Assembly: GCF_009389715.1 (NCBI RefSeq)
Contig: NC_052395.1
Coordinates: 23,183,982 to 23,247,981 of the forward strand
Reading direction: 5' to 3'
Length of the DNA: 64,000 nt
From: Phoenix dactylifera
Lineage: Eukaryota > Streptophyta > Magnoliopsida > Arecales > Arecaceae
A model generated the notes under the pieces. It ran no database searches and was not told the DNA's origin. It worked only from the letters and a program-made list of their open reading frames with translations. The first letter of the stretch is position 1. Every line of letters starts with the position of its first letter. Shown here one piece after another: positions 19,750 to 64,000 of the stretch. The position numbers and the translations under genes are program-made.

Positions 19750-22160
19750 TCAATGATTCCTTATGGGTTTCAGTCCCATCCCCTTTGATGTTTCTATGAC
19801 TTTGCTTCTAGCCAGTCCTTTAGTTAAAGGATCTGCTAGGTTATCTTTAGATCCAACAAATTCCAAAGTTATGATACCATTTTTAATTAGGTATCTAATA
19901 GTCTTATGTCTCACACTAATGTGTCTTCTATTTCTCTTGTTATACTCAGTATTTCTACAAGTATTAATTGCAGCTTCATTATCACATAACAAAGAGATAG
20001 CAGGTATAGGCTTTTCCATAATAGGTATTTCAGACATAAGATTCTTAAACCATTCTGCTTCTTGACTTGCAGAATCTAAGGCTACAATCTCAACCTCCAT
20101 AGTGGATCTTGTGATCACAGTTTGTTTGGATGATCTCCAAGCAACAGCTGCACCATCCAACATGAATATGTATCCACTAGTTCCTTTTTGATTCACTGAA
20201 TCAGTGATCCAACTAGCATCACTGTATCCTTCAAGTATAGTGGGAAATCTTGAGTAATGTAAACCATAATACATTGTACCTCTCAAGTATCTAAGTACTC
20301 TATCCAGTGCTTCCCAGTGACTAAGACTAGGGCAACTATTAAACCTACTGAGCTTTCCTATAACATAAGAAATGTCAGGTCTACTTGTATTTGCAACATA
20401 CATCAGTGTCCCAATAATTTGAGCAAATTTCTCTTGGGCCACTGGATCACCTTTATTGCACTTCAAGTTCAAACCATGCTCATAAGGTGTACTCACTGGT
20501 TTACAGTTGTACTTATCAAATTTCTTCAATATTTTCTCAATATATTGTGATTGATCAAAGATTATACCATCAGGTATTCTGGTAATCCTGTTACCAAGAA
20601 TTACCTCCGCCTGACCTAAATCTTTCATATCAAAATTATTAGATAAGAAAGTTTTGATATCAGTCACCATATTCATATCAGTACCAAAAATTAAAATATC
20701 ATCAACATATAAACACAAGATAATACATGAATCATTTTCTAACTTTGAATATAAGCACTTATCTGATTCATTTGCTTTAAAGCCATAAGAAACAATTATT
20801 TTATCAAATTTCCTATGCCATTGCTTAGGAGCTTGTTTTAAACCATAGAGGGATTTGACTAACCTACAAACTTTTCTTTCCTGTCCTTGAGCCACATATC
20901 CCTCTGGCTGATCCATATAGATCTCTTCCTCTAAATCACCATGAAGGAAGGCAGTCTTGACATCCATTTGATGAATTATCAAATTATGGATTGAAGCCAG
21001 TGCAATTAAAGTACGAATTGTGGTTATCCTAGTTACAGGAGAATATGTATCAAAGTAGTCAATACCCTCTTTCTGAGAAAAGCCCTTAGCAACTAATCTT
21101 GCTTTATATTTTTCAATAGAACCATCAGGTCTTAATTTCTTCTTAAATATCCATTTACAACCTATAGCCTTACTACCAGGTGGTAAGTCAGTTAAAAACC
21201 ATGTTTTATTAGTCATAAGTGAATTCATTTCACTATTAATAGCTTCCTTCCAAAACATAGAATCTAATGAGTTCATAGCATCTTTATAAGTTTTAGGATC
21301 ATCTTCAACCATAAAAGTATAGAAATCAGATCCAAAATCTTTCTTTTTCCTAATTCTTTTTCCTTTACCAAGTTCATTAATATCATTAAGTTCATTTTCA
21401 TTTTCATTATTAGGAATAATTAGAGAATTAGATGGCGAACTACAAGATGCATCATTAGATCTATCTATTACATGCTTTTCTATTTTATCCTTAAATGAAA
21501 AAATGTCTTCAAAGAAAGAAGCATCTTTAGATTCAATTATAGTATTCTTATCTATGCCATTAATATCAGAATTAATGACTAAGAACCTATAAGTAACACT
21601 ATTAAGAGAATAACCAAGAAACACAGCATCAAAAGTATTAGGTCCTAATTTTCTTTTCTTGATTAAAGGAATATTAACCTTAGCCAAACAACCCCAAACT
21701 TTTACAAAATTTAGGTTAGGTTTTCTTCCTTTCCAAAGTTCATAAGGAGATTTATTAGAACCTTTAAATAGTACCCTATTAAGCAGAAAACATGCAGTAA
21801 GCATTGCTTCCCCCCACCAAACCTCAGGTAAACCTGAGTTGGCAAGCAAAGATCTTACCATATCTTGCAGAGTCCTATTTTTCCTTTCAGCCACTCCATT
21901 AGACTGAGGTGAATAGGGAGGTGTAACTTCATGTAGAATTCCATTAACTCTACAGAATTCATTCAAGTCATTAGAGGTGTATTCTCCTCCTCTATCTGAC
22001 CTGAGAATCTTTATTCTCTTGTCAAGTAGATTTTCTACTAAAGATTTGTAAGTCTTGAACATCTCAAATGCTTCATCTTTAGATTTCATTAAATAAACTT
22101 GACAATACTTAGAATAATCATCTATGAAGGTAATGAAATACCTTCTACCCCTTTAGTCAA
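19750..22160 (-). pseudogene. Copia pol: integrase core, reverse transcriptase and RNase H
   Basis: About 800 codons are open on the minus strand to the stop at 19750. In order they show the integrase catalytic core (second Asp in FIDDYSKY near 22125, then RSDRGGEY, then the catalytic Glu in VAERKNRTLQDM), the connection WKEAINSEMNSL, reverse transcriptase (FLHGDLEEEIYMDQPEGYV and the LYVDDILIFG active site), and RNase H (GYSDASWITD, LLCDNEAAINT, DPLTKGL). The product would replicate the element by reverse transcription in cytoplasmic particles. A one-base length change in a G run (C run at 22148-22151 on the plus strand) separates this frame from the upstream integrase part. Confidence 0.92.
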
Positions 22161-22683
22161 AGTTCCATTTAGATCACATACATCTGAATGTATTAATTCT
22201 AATAAAGTTGAATTTCTATTTACTATTTTAAATGGTTTTCTAGGTTGTTTAGATTGAACACAAATTTGGCACCTTTCCTTTTCATTTAATGAAACATTAG
22301 GTAATAAACCAGAGCTAATCATTCTTTTAATAGTATTATTATTCACATGTCCTAATCTAGCATGCCAAAGAGATGAAGAACATATTGAAAGCACAATTTT
22401 ATTATTGTTATCAGAAGGAAAATCCAAAGATACATTATTTATTACATACAAGCCATCACACTCATAGCCTTTGCCTACAAATGTTCCATTCTTTGTTATA
22501 ATCACTTTCTTAGATTGAAATAACAAAGAATAACCACTCCTATTTAGAAGAGATCCACTGATCAGATTCCTCCTTCCATCGGGCACATGGTACACATTAA
22601 ATAGTGTAAGCACATTTCCAAACGTAAGCCTTAGAAGTACTTTTCCAGTTCCAAGCACTCGTGCCGAGGTGGAGTTCCCCATA
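22129..22683 (-). pseudogene. Copia pol: end of protease and integrase zinc-binding region
   Basis: On the minus strand this frame starts at the edge of the nested insertion (22683). It contains the protease-integrase linker and the integrase H2C2 zinc module, with LWHARLGHVNN and CQICVQSKQPRKPF, followed by the first catalytic Asp context LIHSDVCDLNG. It then runs off frame near 22148 because of a one-base indel. It is the direct continuation of the protease segment at 28296-28661 once the inserted element is discounted. Confidence 0.88.
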
Positions 22684-22688
22684 GTTAC
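22684..22688 (+). repeat. Left target-site duplication (GTTAC) of the nested element
   Basis: GTTAC immediately precedes the left LTR of the inner element and recurs at 28291-28295. Confidence 0.93.
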
Positions 22689-23959
22689 TGTTGGTAGAAA
22701 AATGGACCACCCCACAAATGTAATTATAGCACCCAAATCCATCAGCAAGCTCGAGCTCATCCTAAGTGATCGAGCTCTTCCGCTCTCGAGCTCATCCTAA
22801 GTGATCGAGCTCTTCCGCTCTCGAGCTCATCCTAAGTGATCGGGCTCTTCCGCTCTCGAGCTCATCCTAAGTGATCGAGCTCTTCCGCTCTCGAGCTCAT
22901 CCTAAGTGATCGGGCTCTTCCGCTCTCGAGCTCATCCTAAGTGATCGGGCTCTTCCGCTCTCGAGCTCATAGACCAGAGAGCCGAGACCAGAGAGCCGAG
23001 ACCAGAAGGCCGAGACCAGAGAGCCGAGACCAGAAGGCCGAGACCAGAAGGCCGAGACCAGAGAGCCGAGACCAGAAGGCCGAGCACAGCAGGCCGAGCC
23101 CATGCCTTAGCCAAATATCCAATTTCCACCTAACCCTCTAAGGGACCTGACAACTCCACTATAACCTGCCACTATCTCCAAGCCATCAAGGCATAAGATC
23201 TTTGCAGGTATTCGGCACGACCTGCCATTAATGCACGAGACTCTCTCAAGTCTCCGATGCACTCAGTCATTTAATGAACACGGCCCAAGACGATCTCCGG
23301 ATCACTGAACCATCAGAACGTATGGCTCTCCCTGACCGCCGGTTCATTCGGTAATAAATGCACTTACCATCCACGGACCCCAGGCCCACCACAGCCGGCG
23401 GTTCAACCACTCCAACAGGTCCGATCGACCGTGACAACTCCCTGATTCCGGTCTGATCCGGTCCCGTTCTCCATTACGCCATTAATGGGCCAAATCGTGC
23501 CCAATTATTACAAAATAGGACAAACCTCCTGTCACCTCCCAGGTAACAAAAATCCTCCTATAAAAGGAAACCTGGGGGGAAAAGGGAGGGGGGACCAAAA
23601 ACAAGAGGAAAAACTCGGAGCTGGAGAGAACCCTCCTAGACCGGGGGAAAAAGGAAGAAAACAGCACAGATACAATTGAACACAATATTCTCTTTGTCTT
23701 CTCCACATACTCTCTTCCCTGCTCTCTCCACATACTGGCCCCCTCTGACTTAGGCATCGGAGGGCCGGCGCCGGGGAGCCCGGCCACCGGCTTTTTTGGC
23801 AGGACAGGACAGGACTGGACGCACCACCCCTCTTCGGATGCTCCCACGCCCCACGGTGGAGGACGCAGCCGGCCGGCGCACCGCCGTCCGCCCCCTGTAG
23901 CAGCGGAGCTCCTCCTTCCCCGGCTTCGCGGCGGCCCCCGGGTCCAATTTCCAGCAACA
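22689..23959 (+). mobile_element. Left (5') LTR of the nested gypsy-type element
   Basis: This LTR of 1271 bp begins TGTTGGTAGAAAAATGG and ends TTTCCAGCAACA. Positions 22750-22970 hold six copies of a 33-bp unit (CTCATCCTAAGTGATCG core). An array of about 16-17-bp GACCAGAAGGCCGA units follows at 22973-23095. The likely promoter is TATAAAAGG at 23559-23567. Directly after the LTR, TTGGCGCTAGAGGAAGG (23961-23977) sits in the primer-binding-site position. Confidence 0.92.
22750..22970 (+). repeat. Six tandem copies of a 33-bp unit in the left LTR
   Basis: The core CTCATCCTAAGTGATCG, followed by AGCTCTTCCGCTCTCGAG or a one-base variant, repeats six times. The right LTR (27150-27300) has four copies. 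The difference of two units (66 bp) explains nearly all of the 70-bp length difference between the LTRs. Confidence 0.88.
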
Positions 23960-25466: not shown

Positions 25467-26189
25467 CCTCTCACGGGCATCATCAATACCATCAGAGGGC
25501 GGGCAACTAGAGGCACCAGAAGCTCCGAGCTCGGAAAAAAGAGCTTCCTCAAAGCATCCGTGCACTGTAAAAGTCACATCTCCTTTTCTGATGAAGACCA
25601 AAAGGGTGTTGAGCCCTCTTTATGACGACGCTGTAGCTATTTCCCTCATCATTGCAAGGCTTTAAAAAAAAGGATTTTAGTACATAATGAAAGCTCGGCT
25701 GATGCCTTATTTTGTATGCCTTCCAAAGGATGAGCGCTCCTCTGGCTAGATTCATAGGAGATTCTACCCCAAGAAAGTACTATGAAGCTAAATCCTTTCA
25801 TGGTCCAGAAGGCTGCCGAGCTCCGAAGGCCGCCGAGCTCAGAAAGCCGAGCACCAAAGGCCGCCGAGCTCAGAAGGCTGCCAAGCTCCGAAGCCCGAGC
25901 TCAGAAGCCCGAATGCAGAACACCTCCCCCAGAAAATCGAGCCAAAGAAAGCTAGTGCCAAGCTAAGTCCTAAGGGACTTCGAAGCTCGGAAGCCATCAA
26001 AATATCTCCAAAAGGTACAGGACGCCACTTTGGCTTCAAATAATTTCAATATTTTATCTATTTCCAGGTCGGAGAATCCAAAAAACGACCAAACGTCGCC
26101 CCGAATAGGGCGCACGATCGCTAAACGGACGAAGTCCGTCTCCTGTATGCGTCTCCAATGATGCTCTGGCTAAGCTCGGGACGCCGATT
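25467..26189 (+). other. Non-coding internal region of the nested element
   Basis: This occupies the place where pol would begin. It contains GAGCTC/GCCGAGC-rich repeats (about 25805-25915) and no protease, RT or integrase motif in any frame. Confidence 0.7.
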
Positions 26190-26640
26190 CGACGCCATTC
26201 GACGACACTTCGACGCCATTCGACGCCATTCGACGACACTTCGACGCCATTCGACGCCACTCGACGCCACTTCGACGCCATTCGACGCCATTCGACGACA
26301 CTTCGACGACATCCAACGCCATTCGACGCCATTCGACGACACTTCGACGCCATTCGACGCCATTCGACGACACTTCGACGACATCCAACGCCATTCGACG
26401 CCATTCGACGCCATTCGACGACACTTCGACGCCATTCGACGACACTTCGACGACATCCAACGCCATTCGACGCCATTCGACGCCATTCGACGCCACTTCG
26501 ACGCCATTCGACGCCATTCGACGCCATTCGACGACACTTCGACGCCATTCGACGCCATTCGACGACACTTCGACGCCATTCGACGCCTTTCAACGCCATT
26601 CGACGCCTTTCAACGCCATTCGACGCCTCCTACGACAACA
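26190..26640 (+). repeat. 10-11-bp minisatellite (CATTCGACGC / CACTTCGACGA)
   Basis: About 450 bp consist of roughly 40 near-identical 10-11-bp units with the shared core TTCGACG. Higher-order groupings end in ATCCAACGC. The array lacks stop codons in several frames on both strands and so generates long spurious open frames. It lies between gag and the 3' LTR of the nested element. Confidence 0.92.
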
Positions 26641-26739
26641 CGCCCCGATCTGAGTGGGGGCACCCTGCTGAGTCGACCACAACCCAAAGAAGGCCGCTGA
26701 GTCGACCTGAAGCACTTTAACTCCAACTGCATGAGAGGT

Positions 26740-27089: not shown

Positions 27090-28290
27090 TGTTGGTGGAA
27101 AAATGGACCACCCCACAAATGTAATTATAGCACCCAAATCCATCAGCAAGCTCGAGCTCATCCTAAGTGATCGAGCTCTTCCGCTCTCGAGCTCATCCTA
27201 AGTGATCGAGCTCTTCCGCTCTCGAGCTCATCCTAAGTGATCGGGCTCTTCCGCTCTCGAGCTCATCCTAAGTGATCGAGCTCTTCCGCTCTCGAGCTCA
27301 TAGACCAGAGAGCCGAGACCAGAGAGCCGAGACCAAAAGGCCGAGACCAGAAGGCCGAGACCAGAAGGCCGAGACCAGAGAGCCGAGACCAGAAGGCCGA
27401 GACCAGAAGGCCGAGCACAGCAGGCCGAGCCCATGCCTTAGCCAAATATCCAATTTCCACCTAACCCTCTAAGGGACCTGACAACTCCACTATAACCTGC
27501 CACTATCTCCAAGCCATCAAGGCATAAGATCTTCGCAGGTATTCGGCACGACCTGCCATTAATGCACGAGACTCTCTCAAGTCTCCGATGCACTCAGTCA
27601 TTTAATGAACACGGCCCAAGACGATCTCCGGATCACTGAACCATCAGAACGTATGGCTCTCCCTGACCGCCGGTTCATTCGGTAATAAATGCACTTACCA
27701 TCCACGGACCCCAGGCCCACCACAGCCGGCGGTTCAACCACTCCAACAGGTCCGATCGACCGTGACAACTTCCTGATTCCGGTCTGATCCGGTCCCGTTC
27801 TCCATTACGCCATTAATGGGCCAAATCGTGCCCAATTATTACAAAACAGGACAAACCTCCTGTCACCTCCCAGGTAACAAAAATTCTCCTATAAAAGGAA
27901 ACCTGGGGGGAAAAGGGAGGGGGGACCAAAAACAAGAGGAAAAACCCGGAGCTGGAGAGAACCCTCCTAGACCGGGGGAAAAAGGAAGAAAACAGCACAG
28001 ACACAATTGAACACAATATTCTCTTTGTCTTCTCCACATACTCTCTTTCCTGCTCTCTCCACATACTGGCCCCCTCTGACTTAGGCATCGGAGGGCCGGC
28101 GCCGGGGAGCCCGGCCACCGGCTTTTTTGGCAGGACAGGACAGGACTGGACGCACCACCCCTCTTCGGACGCTCCCACGCCCCACGGTGGAGGACGCAGC
28201 CGGCCGGCGCACCGCCGTCCGCCCCCTGTAGCAGCGGAGCTCCTCCTTCCCCGGCTTCGCGGCGGCCCCCGGGTCCAATTTCCAGCAACA
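27090..28290 (+). mobile_element. Right (3') LTR of the nested gypsy-type element
   Basis: This 1201-bp LTR starts TGTTGGTGG and ends CAGCAACA. It is almost identical to the left LTR apart from having four rather than six 33-bp units and scattered single-base differences. It is followed by GTTAC. Confidence 0.92.
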
Positions 28291-28295
28291 GTTAC
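28291..28295 (+). repeat. Right target-site duplication (GTTAC) of the nested element
   Basis: Identical to 22684-22688. The host Copia reading frame resumes directly after it. Confidence 0.93.
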
Positions 28296-28661
28296 TGTTA
28301 GGCCGCTCCGGACCTGATAAGTAGTAAAAAGGGTATGATCAGTACACATATGAACATTCGCACCTGTATCCACTAACCAATCGGAAGAGCAAATTGCCAA
28401 ATTTAATTCTGGACTTAAAGTTACATACCGATCATCAGTACTAGTAGGATCAGTACTGGATAGCACCATGTTGGTTTGTGGATTTGCAGGTTGAGAAGGC
28501 GCATGTTCATAGTTCTGATACTTCTTCTTCTTCATCCGGCATACTCGAGCCGTATGACCGAGTTTCCCACAATTGTAGCAAATCGGCTTCCGATCATTCT
28601 TATTGATATGATGTTTTGGCTTCATAGGTTTTCTTTTGTTTCTAGGTCCACCCTTTTTCAA
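28296..28661 (-). pseudogene. Copia gag C-terminus (zinc knuckle) and protease
   Basis: On the minus strand this frame carries a CCHC zinc knuckle (CYNCGKLGHTARVC, near 28580-28540) preceded by a basic stretch. The aspartic protease active site WLVDTGANVHMC (near 28375-28340) follows, and the frame is cut by the nested insertion at 28295. It is offset by one base from the gag frame at 28642-29337 at a short homopolymer near 28650. Confidence 0.9.
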
Positions 28662-29337
28662 ATTTGGAGTTCTTGAACTTATGGATCTTATTTTGGCCTT
28701 CTACAAAGTTCACCTTGGTTAGAAGCTCAGGATTCATGAGTTGCTCATTATCTTTCTCAAGGTGTTGTTCTTGGATCCTAATGGCAGACAATAGAGTTTT
28801 CATTGTCATATCCTCGGTTTTATGTTTCAGGGATAACCCAAAGTCTTTCCAAGAAGGTGGGAGCTTGTCAATGGTACAAGCAACTTGAAGGCTCTCAGTT
28901 ATACCCATTCTCCTTAAGCCTAATTCATGATAAATCACTGTTAACTCATGGGCTTGATCAACTACAGGCTTGGTGTCAACCATCTTATAAGACAGGAATT
29001 GACTAGCAGCATACTTGTCCATTCCGGCATCTTGGATACCATATTTCTTATTAAGATCATCCCAAATCTCCTTGGAGGTTTTAAAAGTGCAGTAGACATC
29101 AAAAAGGGGATCAGTAAGATAGGACAGAATCCTTCCCCTACACAGGTAGTCTTTCTTCTTAAATTCCTCCAAATTACAAGTTCTAGTTGGTTCATTCTCT
29201 TCCTCATTTGGAGGAGAGTCAAAGATTATGGAAAATAACCCAAGTGTGGTTAAGAAGATTTCCATCTTCTGTCTCCAACGTTTAAAGTTATTTCCATTAA
29301 ATTTTTCAGGAGGAACCGGGTCACTTGCATTGGCCAT
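28642..29337 (-). CDS. Copia Gag (UBN2-type) N-terminal part
   Basis: The ATG at 29337 starts a frame of 231 aa. The motifs FNGNNFKRWRQKMEIFLTTL, SKEIWDDLNKKYG and MGITESLQVACTIDKLPPSW are those of the plant Copia gag (UBN2/DUF4219-type) family. The frame ends prematurely in a stop caused by a one-base shift beside AAAAAGGG (minus strand, near 28650). Beyond it the zinc-knuckle frame continues. Gag forms the retrotransposon particle. Confidence 0.9.
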   Translation of the reverse strand: MANASDPVPPEKFNGNNFKRWRQKMEIFLTTLGLFSIIFDSPPNEEENEPTRTCNLEEFKKKDYLCRGRILSYLTDPLFDVYCTFKTSKEIWDDLNKKYGIQDAGMDKYAASQFLSYKMVDTKPVVDQAHELTVIYHELGLRRMGITESLQVACTIDKLPPSWKDFGLSLKHKTEDMTMKTLLSAIRIQEQHLEKDNEQLMNPELLTKVNFVEGQNKIHKFKNSKFEKGWT

Positions 29338-29392
29338 TGGAGTAACTCTAAGTACTAGCCTATTATATGTATGAAGAAATCTACTTCAAGAA

Positions 29393-57990: not shown

Positions 57991-58742
57991 CGACGCGCAC
58001 CATCTAGTTTACCCAACCCGACCTGTTGCCAATCCCGACTCGGTTCTCTTTATGCCTTGTAATCAGTTATCCTCATCTCAAATTCAAAGATCTCTTGTGG
58101 GAGGAATTAAGCTAACAGACCAAACCAAATCTTTTCCCAAGGAGGAGGACTGTATCTTTGGTGTTTTCCTTGATCTCCCTTATTCTAAAGAGGTGGTCGT
58201 GTTCCCTGCACCCCATGATTCCCTGACCACTAGGAGGAGCAAGCGAGGTCCTCATGTCTCTCTCCCCACCAACTAGGACTTGGGAGAGTCTTGCCGCCCC
58301 TTTGCTCCAGACACAGTTCTAGCTCTAGTATTCCTCCTCCCCTTCAATTCGTAGAACTTTTTATTGGACTAACGTGCTCCGTGTCAATACCAATTTATTA
58401 TTATAACTCTGCTTGATTTGGGCCTTACTCGACCCAGCCCAAACTGATACGCCTGGTAAATAGACAAAAATCGTTGTAATTAAGTATACAACCACAATAG
58501 CTGCCGCATGAAAGAAGATAGAACCGCAAACATATTAATTATTACGAAGTCCAAGGGCATACACAACCATAGACAAAAGAAAAAGGATAAACTTAAACCA
58601 CATCTTGGACCGGATCCAACGATCGAACCCCAAAGTTTTGCATGACATGTTAAAGAAGAACAACGTAAGTAACATAAATGGAGGACATCCACGGCAAGAT
58701 ATCGATAGAAAGCTTTATAACTGGCAATGTGGTCAGACCAGT
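57991..58742. other. Intergenic and 3' region of NAC-A
   Basis: A frame of 74 codons at 58052-58276 is not recognisable. From about 58655 the DNA is homologous to 62986 onward, marking the left edge of the NAC duplication. Confidence 0.4.
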
Positions 58743-59338
58743 CTACTGCCTGGAGCTTCCCTCTTCTTGGATTGCGCAGATGGCCTTCTGCACTCAATTG
58801 GAACCAGACGACAAGGCAGCATCAACCATTAAAAGAGCTGTTAGGATGTGCATCATAAACTAATTCATGTGGTAACGTTCTACTACCTTATTTTTGCCAC
58901 TCTTATTGGGATGAAGGGTGTACTCAATCATGACCCAAGTCCTGGGGCCTTTATCTCGTGGAATAAATTTGAACATCTGCTTGTACATAACAGCATTACT
59001 CCCATGTCTATACGGTGTTTCTACGCCGACGCGCCGCCAGCAGCCACTATGATCTTCGACTTTTCGCTCGTCGGTCCTGGGGTTCTCGGCGCACTCAACG
59101 TAGTAATAAGATACACCTGAGCTGCGACGCGTGCTCCCAGCTGCAAGAAAAGCTAGTGAAGAAGATTGCGGGGCAGCAGAAACAGAGTATCGATGTAGTC
59201 AAGAAGATTACCATGCAGTAGATCGGGGCCGAAATGGTAAGGATTGCGAACTGGATCAATTGCTCCCCACGACGGCCTAATGTGACCACCATCGTATTCT
59301 TTGAGGTACTTTAGAAGCTCTTGATCGTCGAAGGACAT
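58743..59338 (-). CDS. NAC-A: small NAC-domain-only protein
   Basis: Three minus-strand exons (59212-59338, 58887-59140, 58743-58787) join in frame to 141 aa. Exon 1 gives MSFDDQELLKYLKEYDGG, corresponding to NAC subdomain A (DEELVxxYL), and ends FGPDLLH. Exon 2 gives SYYYVECAENPRTDERK, SGCWRRVGVETPYRHGSNAV (the place of GYWKATGxD) and TWVMIEYTLHPNK (subdomain E). Exon 3 gives KAICAIQEEGSSRQ and the stop. Introns of 71 and 99 nt are GT-AG, and the first lies in the standard NAC phase after a codon's first base. NAC proteins are plant DNA-binding transcription factors. Here the C-terminal activation region is missing and the LPPGFRFHPT start is lost, so DNA binding is uncertain. It could act as a dimerising modulator; this is inference. 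NAC-B is its head-to-head neighbour. Confidence 0.82.
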
Positions 59339-60454
59339 CCTCTGCTTCTTTGCCTATCCCTGCAATGCTTGACGGACGGATCGTGATGGACATGGCTTGG
59401 GTTTGATCCATATTAATAGAAGCCTATGGGATTGTCTCTCCCTGGGGAGAGGGAAATCCGGTGAGGAAGGAGCTTTGCTCTCCCCGGGGAGATGGAATGA
59501 GGGTCGCTAGAGACAGGGCAGGCATTTCCTTTGACAGTCTCTGTTTATCGAGGAGGAGAGCAGTAGCTAGAAGTGGTCATCAGTGATGAGTTGGATTAAG
59601 GGTCTTGCCTCCTCCTTTGGAGTTGGGGAGTTGGGTTGGGGGTGGGGAGGGGGAGGGGTTGGGGGCGGCAAGAGATGACACCCGGGTCCTTGAGGAGGGG
59701 GAAGGGTGGTGTTAGAGGGGGCGCGCTCGCTAGCCAGAGAGGCGACCCCATTCCTTAGACAAAGAGGATGGATTTTGTATGAGAAGAGGGAAACGAGCGT
59801 TGTTCCCAGTCGCTCTCCCTCCCTGGGATGACTGGATGAGGGGAAGGGGTGATGCCCGGGGTCAACATACGTGGAGCCCTCCTCGTTTCAAGATATATAG
59901 TTATTATATATGGGGGATGGGCATCGGGTTGGGAACTTGAGATGCATTCCTCACCAACTCAACCAGGTCCCGTTAAACAAATCATAGATCTGTAGCAAAA
60001 AAAAAAAAAAAAAAAACAAATCATCGATGAAGCAGTATGTCATCCCAGAATATCCGACCTTGCCTTCCCCACTCCTCAGTGAGAGTCACCTCTTTGATCC
60101 TTTCGTCACAGTTGAGGCCAAGTCCCCTCTTCCCCAAGGAGAAGGGCTGCAGTTTGGTGCTCTGGATGAACGTGGGAAGGAGATTTCAAATGACAACCCC
60201 TCATCCAATCTAGTCATCCTCATTCGATCGCTTTCCTTGAGGAGATTGGAATGCCTACTCCTCCTCGCTACCCTTCAACAAGGAACGGGGAGGCCCTTGT
60301 TTTGTTATATATGTTTTTGATGCAAAGATTGCGAGTTCGTCACCAAGGAAGGGGACAGCCCTTGCTACCACAGATAAGCTCTTATAAAGCCTACGCTCCC
60401 CCTCCTCCCCTTCCATCCATAAAAAGAACCTGAAGCTCCTGCAGGAAAGCAAAG
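59339..60454. promoter_or_regulatory. Shared upstream region between NAC-A and NAC-B
   Basis: The two start codons face away from each other across 1.1 kb, so this is a candidate bidirectional promoter. It holds a G-rich tract (59620-59720), TATA-like AT runs (59890-59910) and a poly-A run (59997-60019). A frame of 97 codons at 60027-60320 is not recognisable. Positions 59597-59770 are closely similar to 63729-63900 upstream of NAC-C. Confidence 0.5.
60383..60388 (+). promoter_or_regulatory. TATA box of NAC-B
   Basis: TATAAA lies 72 bp upstream of the NAC-B ATG, within CTCTTATAAAGCC. Spacing fits a plant core promoter with a short leader. Confidence 0.6.
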
Positions 60455-61204
60455 ATGGAGGGCCTTCCCCTTGGTGCTCGCTTCCAGCCTAGTGATCAAG
60501 AGATACTGTTCTACCTCTGCTATCATGCCGTGTTTTGCCAGCCTCTTGATGGTGGATTCATTATGAACGGGGACCTTAGATATTTTCAGGTGGAGCATCC
60601 CCCAGGTAAATTCCATACAGAGCCAGCATTCACCCCAATATTCATTTGATTCGCAAACGCCTAACTCTTGGTCGATTTGGCTCCTGTAGACGTTCGCAGT
60701 TTGGGGAGACTGTACTACTACACACAGTGCTTCTACAGGCTGGTGCGGGGTCGACCGACTCGAGATCGGCGCACCGTCGACGGGAGGGGCCGCTGGAAAT
60801 CTACCGATGGACAAAAGACCATCTACGAGAGTAGCGAGATTGTGGGGTACAAGCAGGATTTCAGATTTCGCCGACTGGAAGCTCCTGGAGAAGAGGTCTC
60901 AACAACTTGGGTCATGACTGAGTACACCCTTCGTTCCAACAAGAGCAACAACAACAACATGGTAACTGCTCTGGTTCCATTTTTATTTTTCTATGTTCTA
61001 TATTCTATATTTTCATTTTTATTTTGTTTAGTTTTTGGGAACAATGTATTTATTATGCTGCGATACATGAGACAGTGTCATACCGCTTGAACTGAACTCA
61101 AGAAGCTCAACTACTTATGCCGCAGGTTAGTGCTGATTTTTTTTTCCTTCTTCCCATAAGCACAGATTGCTGTATGCGTGCTGCGTAACACAAGAGAAGG
61201 CTAA
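60455..61204 (+). CDS. NAC-B: small NAC-domain-only protein
   Basis: Exons 60455-60605, 60690-60961 and 61166-61204 join in frame to 153 aa. Exon 1 starts MEGLPLGARFQPSDQEILFYL, a diverged form of the NAC start LPPGFRFHPTDEELVxxYL, and ends FQVEHPP. Exon 2 gives LGRLYYYTQCFYRLVRGRPT, GRGRWKSTDGQKTIYESSEI (subdomain D, GYWKATGxD), VGYKQDFRFR and TWVMTEYTL. Exon 3 gives IAVCVLRNTREG then TAA, in the place of the VLCRIxxK end of the domain. Both introns are GT-AG in phases identical to NAC-A. The usual long C-terminal regulatory region is absent: typical NAC factors have about 300 aa. Key basic residues of the DNA-contacting strand are partly kept (KST, YKQ). It is the better conserved member of the cluster. 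Confidence 0.85.
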
Positions 61205-63039
61205 GGCCGAGGGACCACCCATTACGAAGTTGTTTGAGCTCTATCAGATTACAAGCCTGGAGGCGATTGTTATATCTTTCGTTGTATCTTTTGGAACAAT
61301 TTATGTACTTTTTGCCTTTCCTTCTTTTTGTCCTTCTACGTGTCTAGATAAGCATATGGGCTGCATCTATCAAGCTCCTTAGCATGGTGTGCGCTTGTTC
61401 CTTTTGCTATGATAAATATGTGTAGTTGTTGCTCCCGGCTTGGATTTCCTGCAGCAATTACTCGAGAATATTTTTTACGTTTTCCCATCGCAAGTAGCCT
61501 TTGCTGATTTCCTATGGATTTCCATGCTTCCTGTTCAATTGTTCTTGTGATAAATAATTTTCTCCTCTTCCTAAGTTTTTTAGAGCACGTCTCCACGGTT
61601 TGTAATTATACTAATTTGTCTTTTCCTGCCTTTTTCCCCTTGAGAGAGGAGGGGTCAATCGGGCGATGGCTATTCGTACTCCACGGGATGATAGGTATGG
61701 GATATTGAGCGAAAAAATGACGTCACCTTTAGAGAAGACTCTTCCGCATAAATGAGCTTGGACCCACGCGGCTTTTAATGTGCTTTTTTTTGTGTGTTGA
61801 CTTTTTTTTTCCGTAGAAAGAGGTGCAACAGTAATAGTACGGGTGCAGCATTAGAGACATCAATATGTTTTTTTTTAGAATAATACAATATAGATACAAA
61901 ATATGATGTCACGACTTGATCCAAAGCTAAAGCATGGGATCCGTATCTGCTCGAAGGGATATAATACAATAGCTAAAATCCCATTTGATTGGGTGGAGTT
62001 TCTTTATAATATGTACAAAAATAATTAGACGAGCAAAATAAAAAAAAAATTACAGCAGTTATTAAAATTTAAAATTTGAATTGAAAAAAAGTAGGAGAAA
62101 AAGAAGAAGAAAAAGAAGAAGAAAAATACAACAAATGGAAGTGGTGCATCTAGAACATGCTGCTTTTTGGCAGTGTCAATGTTCTGGTTGAATTGAATCT
62201 GTTTTGGTTATATATTATTTGTGAATTGTTTTCGAAGTATAAAGGGAATGGAACTTGTTGAATATTGCTACCTATACAGGACTTGAGCCTAAGCGCATGA
62301 TTCAAACAAGGTGACTGCTGCGTGGAGTACGAGTTCAATTACGCTTGAGAACAACTTGTAGGTTCAACAGGCACTGAAATCTTGGCTGCTAGTATCTGGA
62401 CACGACAAAATCCTTGGATGGGCAGCACCTGGATCTAAACTTGTCCCTAGTCCGGTTCTAAGATGGGAGATACTCCGTCCACGTGACCTAATTACTTGAT
62501 ATCACTTTTTGTCATTAAGATGAAGATTTACAAAGAGATTGGATCAACCTTCTTCCCCTGTGGAACTAGTAGGAAATAATTTAATTTAATGTAAACTGAA
62601 ACTCGGACTGTTATCATTTCTGTCGCATTCCAAACCAATCTTTCGAGCCGAACTTTTGACATGACCGCATGCCTCCTAGAACATAACTCTAGGACGGATC
62701 AAGTGCCCCTGATTCGATGTTGGAGGAGGGCCAGCCCTCCCCTCTTAGCTGATCAAACCTTATCCGGTCCGGTTGGATCGACCGGTCATTATACTTTACT
62801 TGAGATGCAGTTGCATGTAGAATATCGGGTAATGTGATCTGAATTGAAAGTGTCCTATGTCTACTAGCGTGCTATTTTCTGTAATTCTTGTTGTTTTTAG
62901 ATAGATTTCCTTATATGGAGTTAATTATCTTGTTAATATAATTTATATGTCCACTTCAATCAAGCTTTCTAACCTTAATTATCAGAACAATATAAGTGAC
63001 ATAAATGGAGGACATCCACGGCAAGACATCGATAGAAAT
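61205..63039. other. Intergenic between NAC-B and NAC-C
   Basis: The 3' region of NAC-B is followed by AT-rich DNA with a (GAA)n run (62095-62125). From about 62986 the sequence is homologous to the 3' side of NAC-A (58655 onward). Confidence 0.4.
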
Positions 63040-63716
63040 CTGTATAACTAGCAATGTGGTCAGACCGGTCTTCTGCCTTGAGCTTCCCTCCTCTTGGTTT
63101 GCGCAGAGGCCCTTCTGCACTCAATCGGAACCAAACGAAAAAGGCAGCATCAACCATTAAAAGAGCTGTTATAATGTACATCATAAACTAATTCAAGTGG
63201 CAACGTTCTATTTATAAAAGTCATGCATGAACTCCTCCTCTCACCTTATTTTTATCGTTCTTATTGGGATAAAGGGTGTACTTTGTCATGACCCACGTCC
63301 AGGGGTCATTTCCTCGTGGAAAAAAGTTGAACAAGATAGTAATAAGATAGTAATAAGACAGTAATAAGGCTGTAATAAGATAGTAATAAGATAGCAATTC
63401 ATGTGTAATTTGTCACCTTATTTTTATCTGCTATTTCTCTGCCGAAGCGCTGCCAGTAACCACTACCATTGGCGGCGTGCCCCCCCTCGGTCTTGAGGTT
63501 CTTGGCGCACTCAACATAGTGATAAGATACACCTGATGAGCAGCCACGCGTGCTCCCACCTACAAGAAAAGCTAGTGAAGAAGATTGCGGGGCAGCAGAA
63601 CCAGAGTATCGATGCAGTCAAGAAGATTACCATGTAGTAGATCGGGCCGGCAATGGTAAGGATTGCGAACTGGATCAATCGCTCCCTACGATGGCCCAAT
63701 GTGACCACCATCGTAT
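63040..63716 (-). pseudogene. NAC-C: decayed paralogue of NAC-A
   Basis: On the minus strand exon 1 (to 63631), exon 2 (from 63559) and exon 3 (from 63114) align with NAC-A. Several lesions are visible. The part of exon 1 with the start codon and DQELL motif is missing through a deletion of about 286 bp. A TAG interrupts the remaining exon 1 (63686-63688). Exon 2 is split by an (AATAAGATAGT)n-like array (63333-63400). Exon 3 lacks the stop used by NAC-A. Recognisable pieces are SYHYVECAKNLKTEG, GSGYWQRFGREI, TWVMTKYTLYPNK and CANQEEGSSRQ. It keeps a more canonical GYW motif than NAC-A. Confidence 0.8.
63333..63400 (+). repeat. (AGTAATAAGAT)n-like minisatellite inside NAC-C exon 2
   Basis: Six to seven imperfect units of about 11 bp (GATAGTAATAA) interrupt the coding homology with NAC-A. 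Confidence 0.85.
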
Positions 63717-64000
63717 TTTTTGAGGTACTTAAGGGTCTTGCCTCCTCCTTTGGAGGTTGGGAGTTGGGGTGGGGGTCGGGAGGGGAAGGGGTTGGGGGCG
63801 GCAAGATATGACACCCGGGTCCTTGAGGAGAGGAAAGGGTGGTGTTAGAGGGGGCGCGCCCGCTAGCCAGAGAGCCGACCCCATTCCATAGACAAAGACG
63901 AGGGACACAAGTGTTGTTCTCTGTCACCCTCCCTGGGAAGAGGAAAAGTGGTGGCGACCGGGTTCTACCCCTCATTATTTATAGTCCTGGAAGCTCCTGC
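63717..64000. promoter_or_regulatory. Upstream region of NAC-C; start of a further copy at the edge
   Basis: Positions 63729-63900 match the NAC-A upstream region (59597-59770), including GACACCCGGGTCCTTGAGGA. The last bases (TATTTATAGTCCTGG then AAGCTCCTGC, 63976-64000) match the NAC-B leader around 60418-60442, where CTGAAGCTCCTGC precedes the ATG by about 15 bp. A plus-strand NAC-B-like gene probably starts just beyond the window. Confidence 0.45.

Follow-up and report, generated by a model that had tools for sequence, protein, structure and literature searches.

At the right-hand end of a 64,000-base window of the Phoenix dactylifera genome (C4:23183982-23247981, in an assembly of 773,078,369 bases and 2,391 contigs) lie two short divergent genes, here called A and B, whose products consist of a NAC domain with nothing downstream of it (Table 1). 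The introns, of 71 and 99 nucleotides in A and of 84 and 204 nucleotides in B, are all bounded by GT-AG and lie in phases 1 and 0 in both genes. Against the NAC profile PF02365, for which the gathering score of 27 bits served as cut-off, both spliced products qualify as members: B scores 59.4 bits (E-value 6.3e-16, model positions 1-122) and A 40.0 bits (E-value 6.5e-10, model positions 10-122). The LPPGFRF arm is thus covered in B, which matches the model from its first position, and absent in A. Subdomain E was recognised by eye (AVCVLRN / AICAI), and, judged by gene structure, the stop codon directly after it leaves neither gene with the C-terminal regulatory region typical of NAC proteins. 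Both proteins are predicted to be basic, with an isoelectric point of about 8.95. An earlier note on this DNA had proposed two divergent genes of 141 and 153 amino acids, ending after subdomain E with identical intron phases, and had named the profile search as a check; the open frames, the splice sites at the predicted coordinates and the two profile matches all bear this out.

Table 1. Features of the paired NAC-domain-only genes and their copies in the window (positions counted from the first base of the window).
Feature	Position	Strand	Description
Gene A, NAC-domain-only	58743..59338	-	Exons 59338-59212, 59140-58887 and 58787-58743; 141 amino acids, open spliced frame
Exon 3 of A	58743..58787	-	Subdomain E remnant KAICAIQEEGSSRQ, then stop
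Candidate bidirectional promoter	59339..60454		1,116 bp separating the divergent ATGs of A and B
Gene B, NAC-domain-only	60455..61204	+	Exons 60455-60605, 60690-60961 and 61166-61204; 153 amino acids, open spliced frame
Exon 3 of B	61166..61204	+	Subdomain E remnant IAVCVLRNTREG, then stop
A', pseudogene copy of A	about 62984..63905	-	ATG deleted, TAG in exon 1, insert in exon 2, exon 3 stop lost
5' flank of a fourth copy, B'	63729..64000	+	272 bases; the stretch is also the upstream side of A'

The same note had seen a third copy as a pseudogene and a fourth as beginning at the window edge, and both observations hold. A' is a direct repeat of A, aligned in blocks of 86.0, 80.0 and 92.7% identity; a deletion at its 5' end takes out the ATG, and its exon 2 carries an insert of 61 bases with TCTTATTACTA-like repeats. 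Over its final 272 bases the window matches the 5' flanks of B-type copies on contig C8, at 94.2% identity to positions 501-774 of locus L040 and at 93.4% to positions 1628-1355 of locus L039. As the B-type ATGs stand at L040 787 and L039 1342, the window stops 12 bases short of where the ATG of B' is expected. The body of B' is unreadable, because 2,500 N follow directly after the window, over its expected position. In the 43.5 kb past this gap no match to A or B was found at an E-value of 0.01, and at an E-value of 1 only a single 15-amino-acid scrap appears (E-value 0.70). As its sequence shows, the window holds a pair in which both frames are open, a broken copy of A and the edge of the B partner of that copy.

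The pair belongs to a family with members elsewhere in the genome, for which all copy counts are lower bounds, as the search scores the best candidates only, and from which short A and B fragments (about 20-25 amino acids each) are left out. Searching with exon 2 of B gave at least seven B-type copies, namely that of the window, four at C8:31.185-31.253 Mb, one at C8:28.10 Mb and one at C11:21.464 Mb, with identities of 100, 91, 88, 84, 84, 75 and 65% over the seven places, the lowest being that of the C11 copy; four further matches on C8 are fragments of about 25 amino acids. The A-type copies also number at least seven (A, A', L034A, L038A, L039A, L040A and L035A). The exon 2 search for this type returned, besides A and A', copies at C8:31.212, C8:31.254 and C11:21.466 Mb together with short fragments, and tblastn on the fetched loci added L039A and L040A, the latter from a locus fetched in part. 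An arm-less start and membership of a pair place L035A in the A-type; the tree described below does not group it with A. A third group, the C-type, comprises at least five copies, three in tandem in L041 and a single one in both L042 and L043. PF02365 also matches L034B, L036B, L038A, L035A and the C-type gene of L042 (42.7-65.3 bits). In a tree of the C-D region the family stands apart from all other NACs with an ultrafast bootstrap of 100, the C-type genes falling in the same clade as A and B; this tree holds 36 sequences (12 of the family and 24 distinct ones from 25 NAC loci) in a short alignment, and samples in part the at least 175 NAM matches that a profile search finds in the genome. 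Nothing close to A or B was found in 17 stretches with NAC hits, three flanking or overlapping stretches and eight loci, and the best score outside the family among the NAC stretches compared was 32.3 bits.

The absence of a tail is, from the copies compared, an old property of the A/B pair, since the divergent C11 pair has it too. The stop lies at or soon after subdomain E in all seven B-type copies and in four of the five A-type copies read in exon 3, a comparison that leaves out L039A and L040A. Among the B-type copies it occupies the same column in five (B, L037B, L039B, L040B and L035B) and comes 11 codons later in L034B and L036B; A, L038A and L034A end at a common stop, L035A ends in KAILAIRNSGP, and A' has lost its stop. 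The C-type genes resemble A in their arm-less N-terminus and, where modelled (L042), in their exon layout. Unlike A and B they carry a tail, of 57 amino acids in L042, which has matches in all five C-type copies, those in the other four being partial. Were A and B ordinary NAC genes with a tail encoded in a further, missed exon, an in-frame stop directly after subdomain E would not be expected to persist in distant copies, and as it does so, and neither the window nor any of the A/B loci searched matches the L042 tail at an E-value of 1, this explanation is very improbable. The tail may have been lost in A and B or gained in the C-type.

The head-to-head order of A and B recurs at five loci (the window, L034, L035, L039 and L040). 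Window positions 58600-59797 and 60087-61456 align to L034 at 87.7 and 89.4% identity, and as these alignments lie on both sides of the intergenic stretch, the unit was copied whole. Within the candidate promoter, 59339-59797 and 60087-60454 fall inside these two blocks, and 59798-60086 is mostly unaligned. Because the divergent C11 pair has the same head-to-head order, this order is older than the C4/C8 copies. A head-to-head pair of tail-less NAC genes was thus probably in place before the copies on C11 diverged from those on C4 and C8, and repeated duplication of the entire unit, about 2.9 kb long, followed in this genome. Of the tandem family of tail-less NACs proposed earlier, the multiple copies and the missing tail stand; a plain tandem array does not, and duplicated divergent pairs take its place. 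The recurrent order, the inclusion of the divergent C11 pair in it and the conservation, among young copies, of both sides of the intergenic stretch are what would be expected if A and B shared a promoter and acted jointly as a two-gene module, for example by binding each other or a common partner. Such a module is nevertheless unlikely: the order on C4 and C8 was inherited through copying of the unit, so that independent support comes from the C11 pair only, A has no dimerisation arm, and the pairs have been split or have lost a partner elsewhere (about 8.6 kb separates L037 from L038, and the A side of L036 is a fragment).

According to its sequence, B retains part of what a NAC protein uses to dimerise. 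It aligns to NAC92 (7xlj, E-value 4.7e-10) and SNAC1 (3ulx), and shares with both the conserved positions R9, D14 and E16, which are the counterparts of R19, D24 and E26 of ANAC019. R19 is needed for dimerisation (PMC6749658). In A, alignment by eye places a D where ANAC019 has R85. In wheat, the R110W substitution is reported to affect a DNA-binding arginine in subdomain iii. No NAC structure was matched by the sequence of A at an E-value of 10. Given its start after the arm and the D in place of R85, A would not be expected to form dimers or contact DNA as other NAC proteins do, and probably cannot pair with full-length NACs by the known route. B may pair with them. In the most likely mechanism B is a small basic protein with a dimerisation arm and part of the DNA-binding face and with no activation region, which could lower the output of full-length NACs by pairing with them or by occupying their sites; A, without the arm and the DNA-contact arginine, is less likely to be a second competitor than a remnant that idles or binds other proteins. 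The suggestion that these genes act as competitors for dimerisation or promoter occupancy is therefore plausible for B only, through its arm and the residues R9, D14 and E16. A copied tail-less pair with B as a competitor of full-length NACs is the reading put forward here, tentatively and at somewhat less than an even chance. An extended form of it, in which the two genes form a cassette with one promoter, together since before the C11 split, with B blocking NAC dimers, arm-less A having a separate protein-binding role and copy number setting the dose, must be considered quite unlikely.

Plant microProteins, to which the pair had been likened, are small relatives of transcription factors that could compete for dimers, and by the usual definition they have no DNA-binding part. 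B differs from them in keeping much of the NAC domain, and A in having no dimerisation arm; as to a dimerisation domain, B has R9, D14 and E16, but an L for P16. Similar in structure are the NAC-only proteins of grasses, which, in the passages available, likewise have a NAC domain without a C-terminal region. They include atypical NACs of barley, whose functions were called unknown and not closely characterised as of 2011 (PMC3226072), three proteins of structure group II in Brachypodium, two of which, BdNAC070 and BdNAC071, form a tandem pair (PMC4376915), and six proteins of group iii in foxtail millet (PMC3654982). As far as these passages go, the three Brachypodium proteins have no conserved C, D and E subdomains, unlike A and B, which reach the end of the model, and no divergent pair copied as a unit is described among the grass genes, which were compared by description. 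Truncated splice forms of NAC genes are dominant negative in poplar (PtrSND1-A2 IR) and maize (nac5, nac125), as described in PMC11644316. A partial NAC that interferes with the full-length protein offers a model for B, and these cases indicate that a tail-less protein such as B can act. The splice forms, however, as described there, come from a full-length gene, whereas A and B are separate genes with the tail absent in the copies read. No published account of this palm family was found in the literature searched, most subscription papers being outside its reach; short NAC-only genes are already known, and the repeatedly duplicated divergent pair seems to be new. A single genome here offers contrasts in the tail (C-type versus A and B), in the arm (B versus A and C-type) and between open and broken copies, and a copied, partly decaying pair could help to test whether tail-less NACs block normal NAC regulators. 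Should B prove to be expressed and to bind full-length NACs, a separate gene would encode what the dominant-negative forms achieve by splicing; otherwise the family would be a good example of decay in short duplicates of transcription factors.

Several observations weigh against B as a competitor. Its substitutions (WKSTDGQK for WKATGKDK, L for P16 and T for H135) may leave both dimerisation and DNA binding weak. Four of the seven copies of each type are broken or incomplete, through stops, a frameshift, an insert or missing exons: no exon 1 was recognised in L037B, L039B and L040B have a TAG inside the frame, L035B does not join in frame across intron 1 in the model used, L034A is shifted out of frame by one base within a run of A, which could be an assembly error, and the frames of L039A, L040A and A' are not open. 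The ratio of nonsynonymous to synonymous divergence (dN/dS, pairwise, with bootstrap intervals) is 0.84-1.33, with intervals that span 1, in nine pairs among the young B-type copies B, L034B, L036B, L039B and L040B, the tenth pair, L039B-L040B, giving 0.59 on three differences. Comparison of B-type copies with L035B, an older split, yields 0.26-0.39, with upper limits of 0.44-0.72, and the copy on which this estimate of constraint is based is the one that does not join in frame. Because dN/dS is low against L035B and near 1 among young copies, constraint on the family is, on these estimates, old, and its relaxation likely recent.

The young copies could accordingly be once-constrained short NAC duplicates that are now relaxed and drifting to loss, the window pair being one that has not yet been hit. 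Their dN/dS values, the broken copies of both types and the divergence of exons and introns, which after masking of CpG and CHG columns is alike in all ten B-type pairs (none with p below 0.05), are consistent with this account. In the window, however, A and B have open frames and correct splice sites, A versus L038A (0.57, interval 0.26-1.49) and B versus L037B in exon 2 (0.52, interval 0.14-2.57) have dN/dS values that lie below 1 without differing from it, and the older split was under constraint. Three B-type (B, L034B and L036B) and three A-type copies (A, L038A and L035A) keep open three-exon frames, and no pair locus read, other than that of the window, has both members open. Drift to loss is thus a serious possibility, at somewhat less than an even chance and about as probable as the reading of B as a competitor.

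Before masking, 13 of 20 pairs, seven of ten B-type and six of ten A-type, showed greater divergence in exons than in introns at p below 0.05. With CpG and CHG columns masked, which costs data and power, the excess is found in none of the ten B-type pairs and still in six of the ten A-type pairs; the pairs are not independent, and near the repeat insert the alignment of several A-type pairs is faulty. Positive selection was considered for the B-type excess and rejected, as mutation at methylation-prone sites accounts for it. When the insert region is left out together with the initial 30 bases of exon 1, the A-type excess falls to four of ten pairs unmasked and two of ten masked, the latter being A-L034A (p 0.019) and A-A' (p 0.024). 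Exon 1 of A versus L034A has a dS of 0.24 and a dN of 0.22 (dN/dS 0.90), and this high synonymous rate speaks for a patch of foreign ancestry, through gene conversion, rather than for selection. The residual excess in two A-type pairs may reflect patchy ancestry or selection, positive selection being neither shown nor excluded.

A likeness between A and B themselves was seen in subdomain D, where 58900-58940 and 60905-60945 have 37 of 41 bases in common, in an exon 2 of only about 36% protein identity overall. Third codon positions agree in 12 of 14 cases in this stretch versus 21 of 49 elsewhere (Fisher p 0.006), and gene conversion between the divergent partners is possible. Among the other copies, L039 (C8:31.185 Mb) and L040 (C8:28.097 Mb) are near-identical broken pairs, separated by about 3 Mb and oppositely oriented, which could be due to a recent duplication or to assembly redundancy.

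Among NAC loci outside the family, clusters of near-identical NAC exon matches of the GYWKASG- or GYWKATG-type, not close to A or B, were seen at C4:16.52-16.57 Mb (L014 and L015) and on C1424 (L018-L020). Eight NAM matches, each of 86.9 bits and with one TGA, lie at C14:13.5-13.64 Mb and on C580, C915 and C1140, those on a common contig being spaced by tens of kb, and represent either an amplified NAC copy or assembly redundancy. Rfam gave no match in the window. Elsewhere in it, Copia-like retrotransposon frames were recognised by eye at 19750-22796 (the integrase and reverse-transcriptase portion) and 27813-29385 (the gag portion), with other reading frames between the two, as if nested. 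Finally, a short repeated unit at 26054-26720 gives long open frames on both strands.

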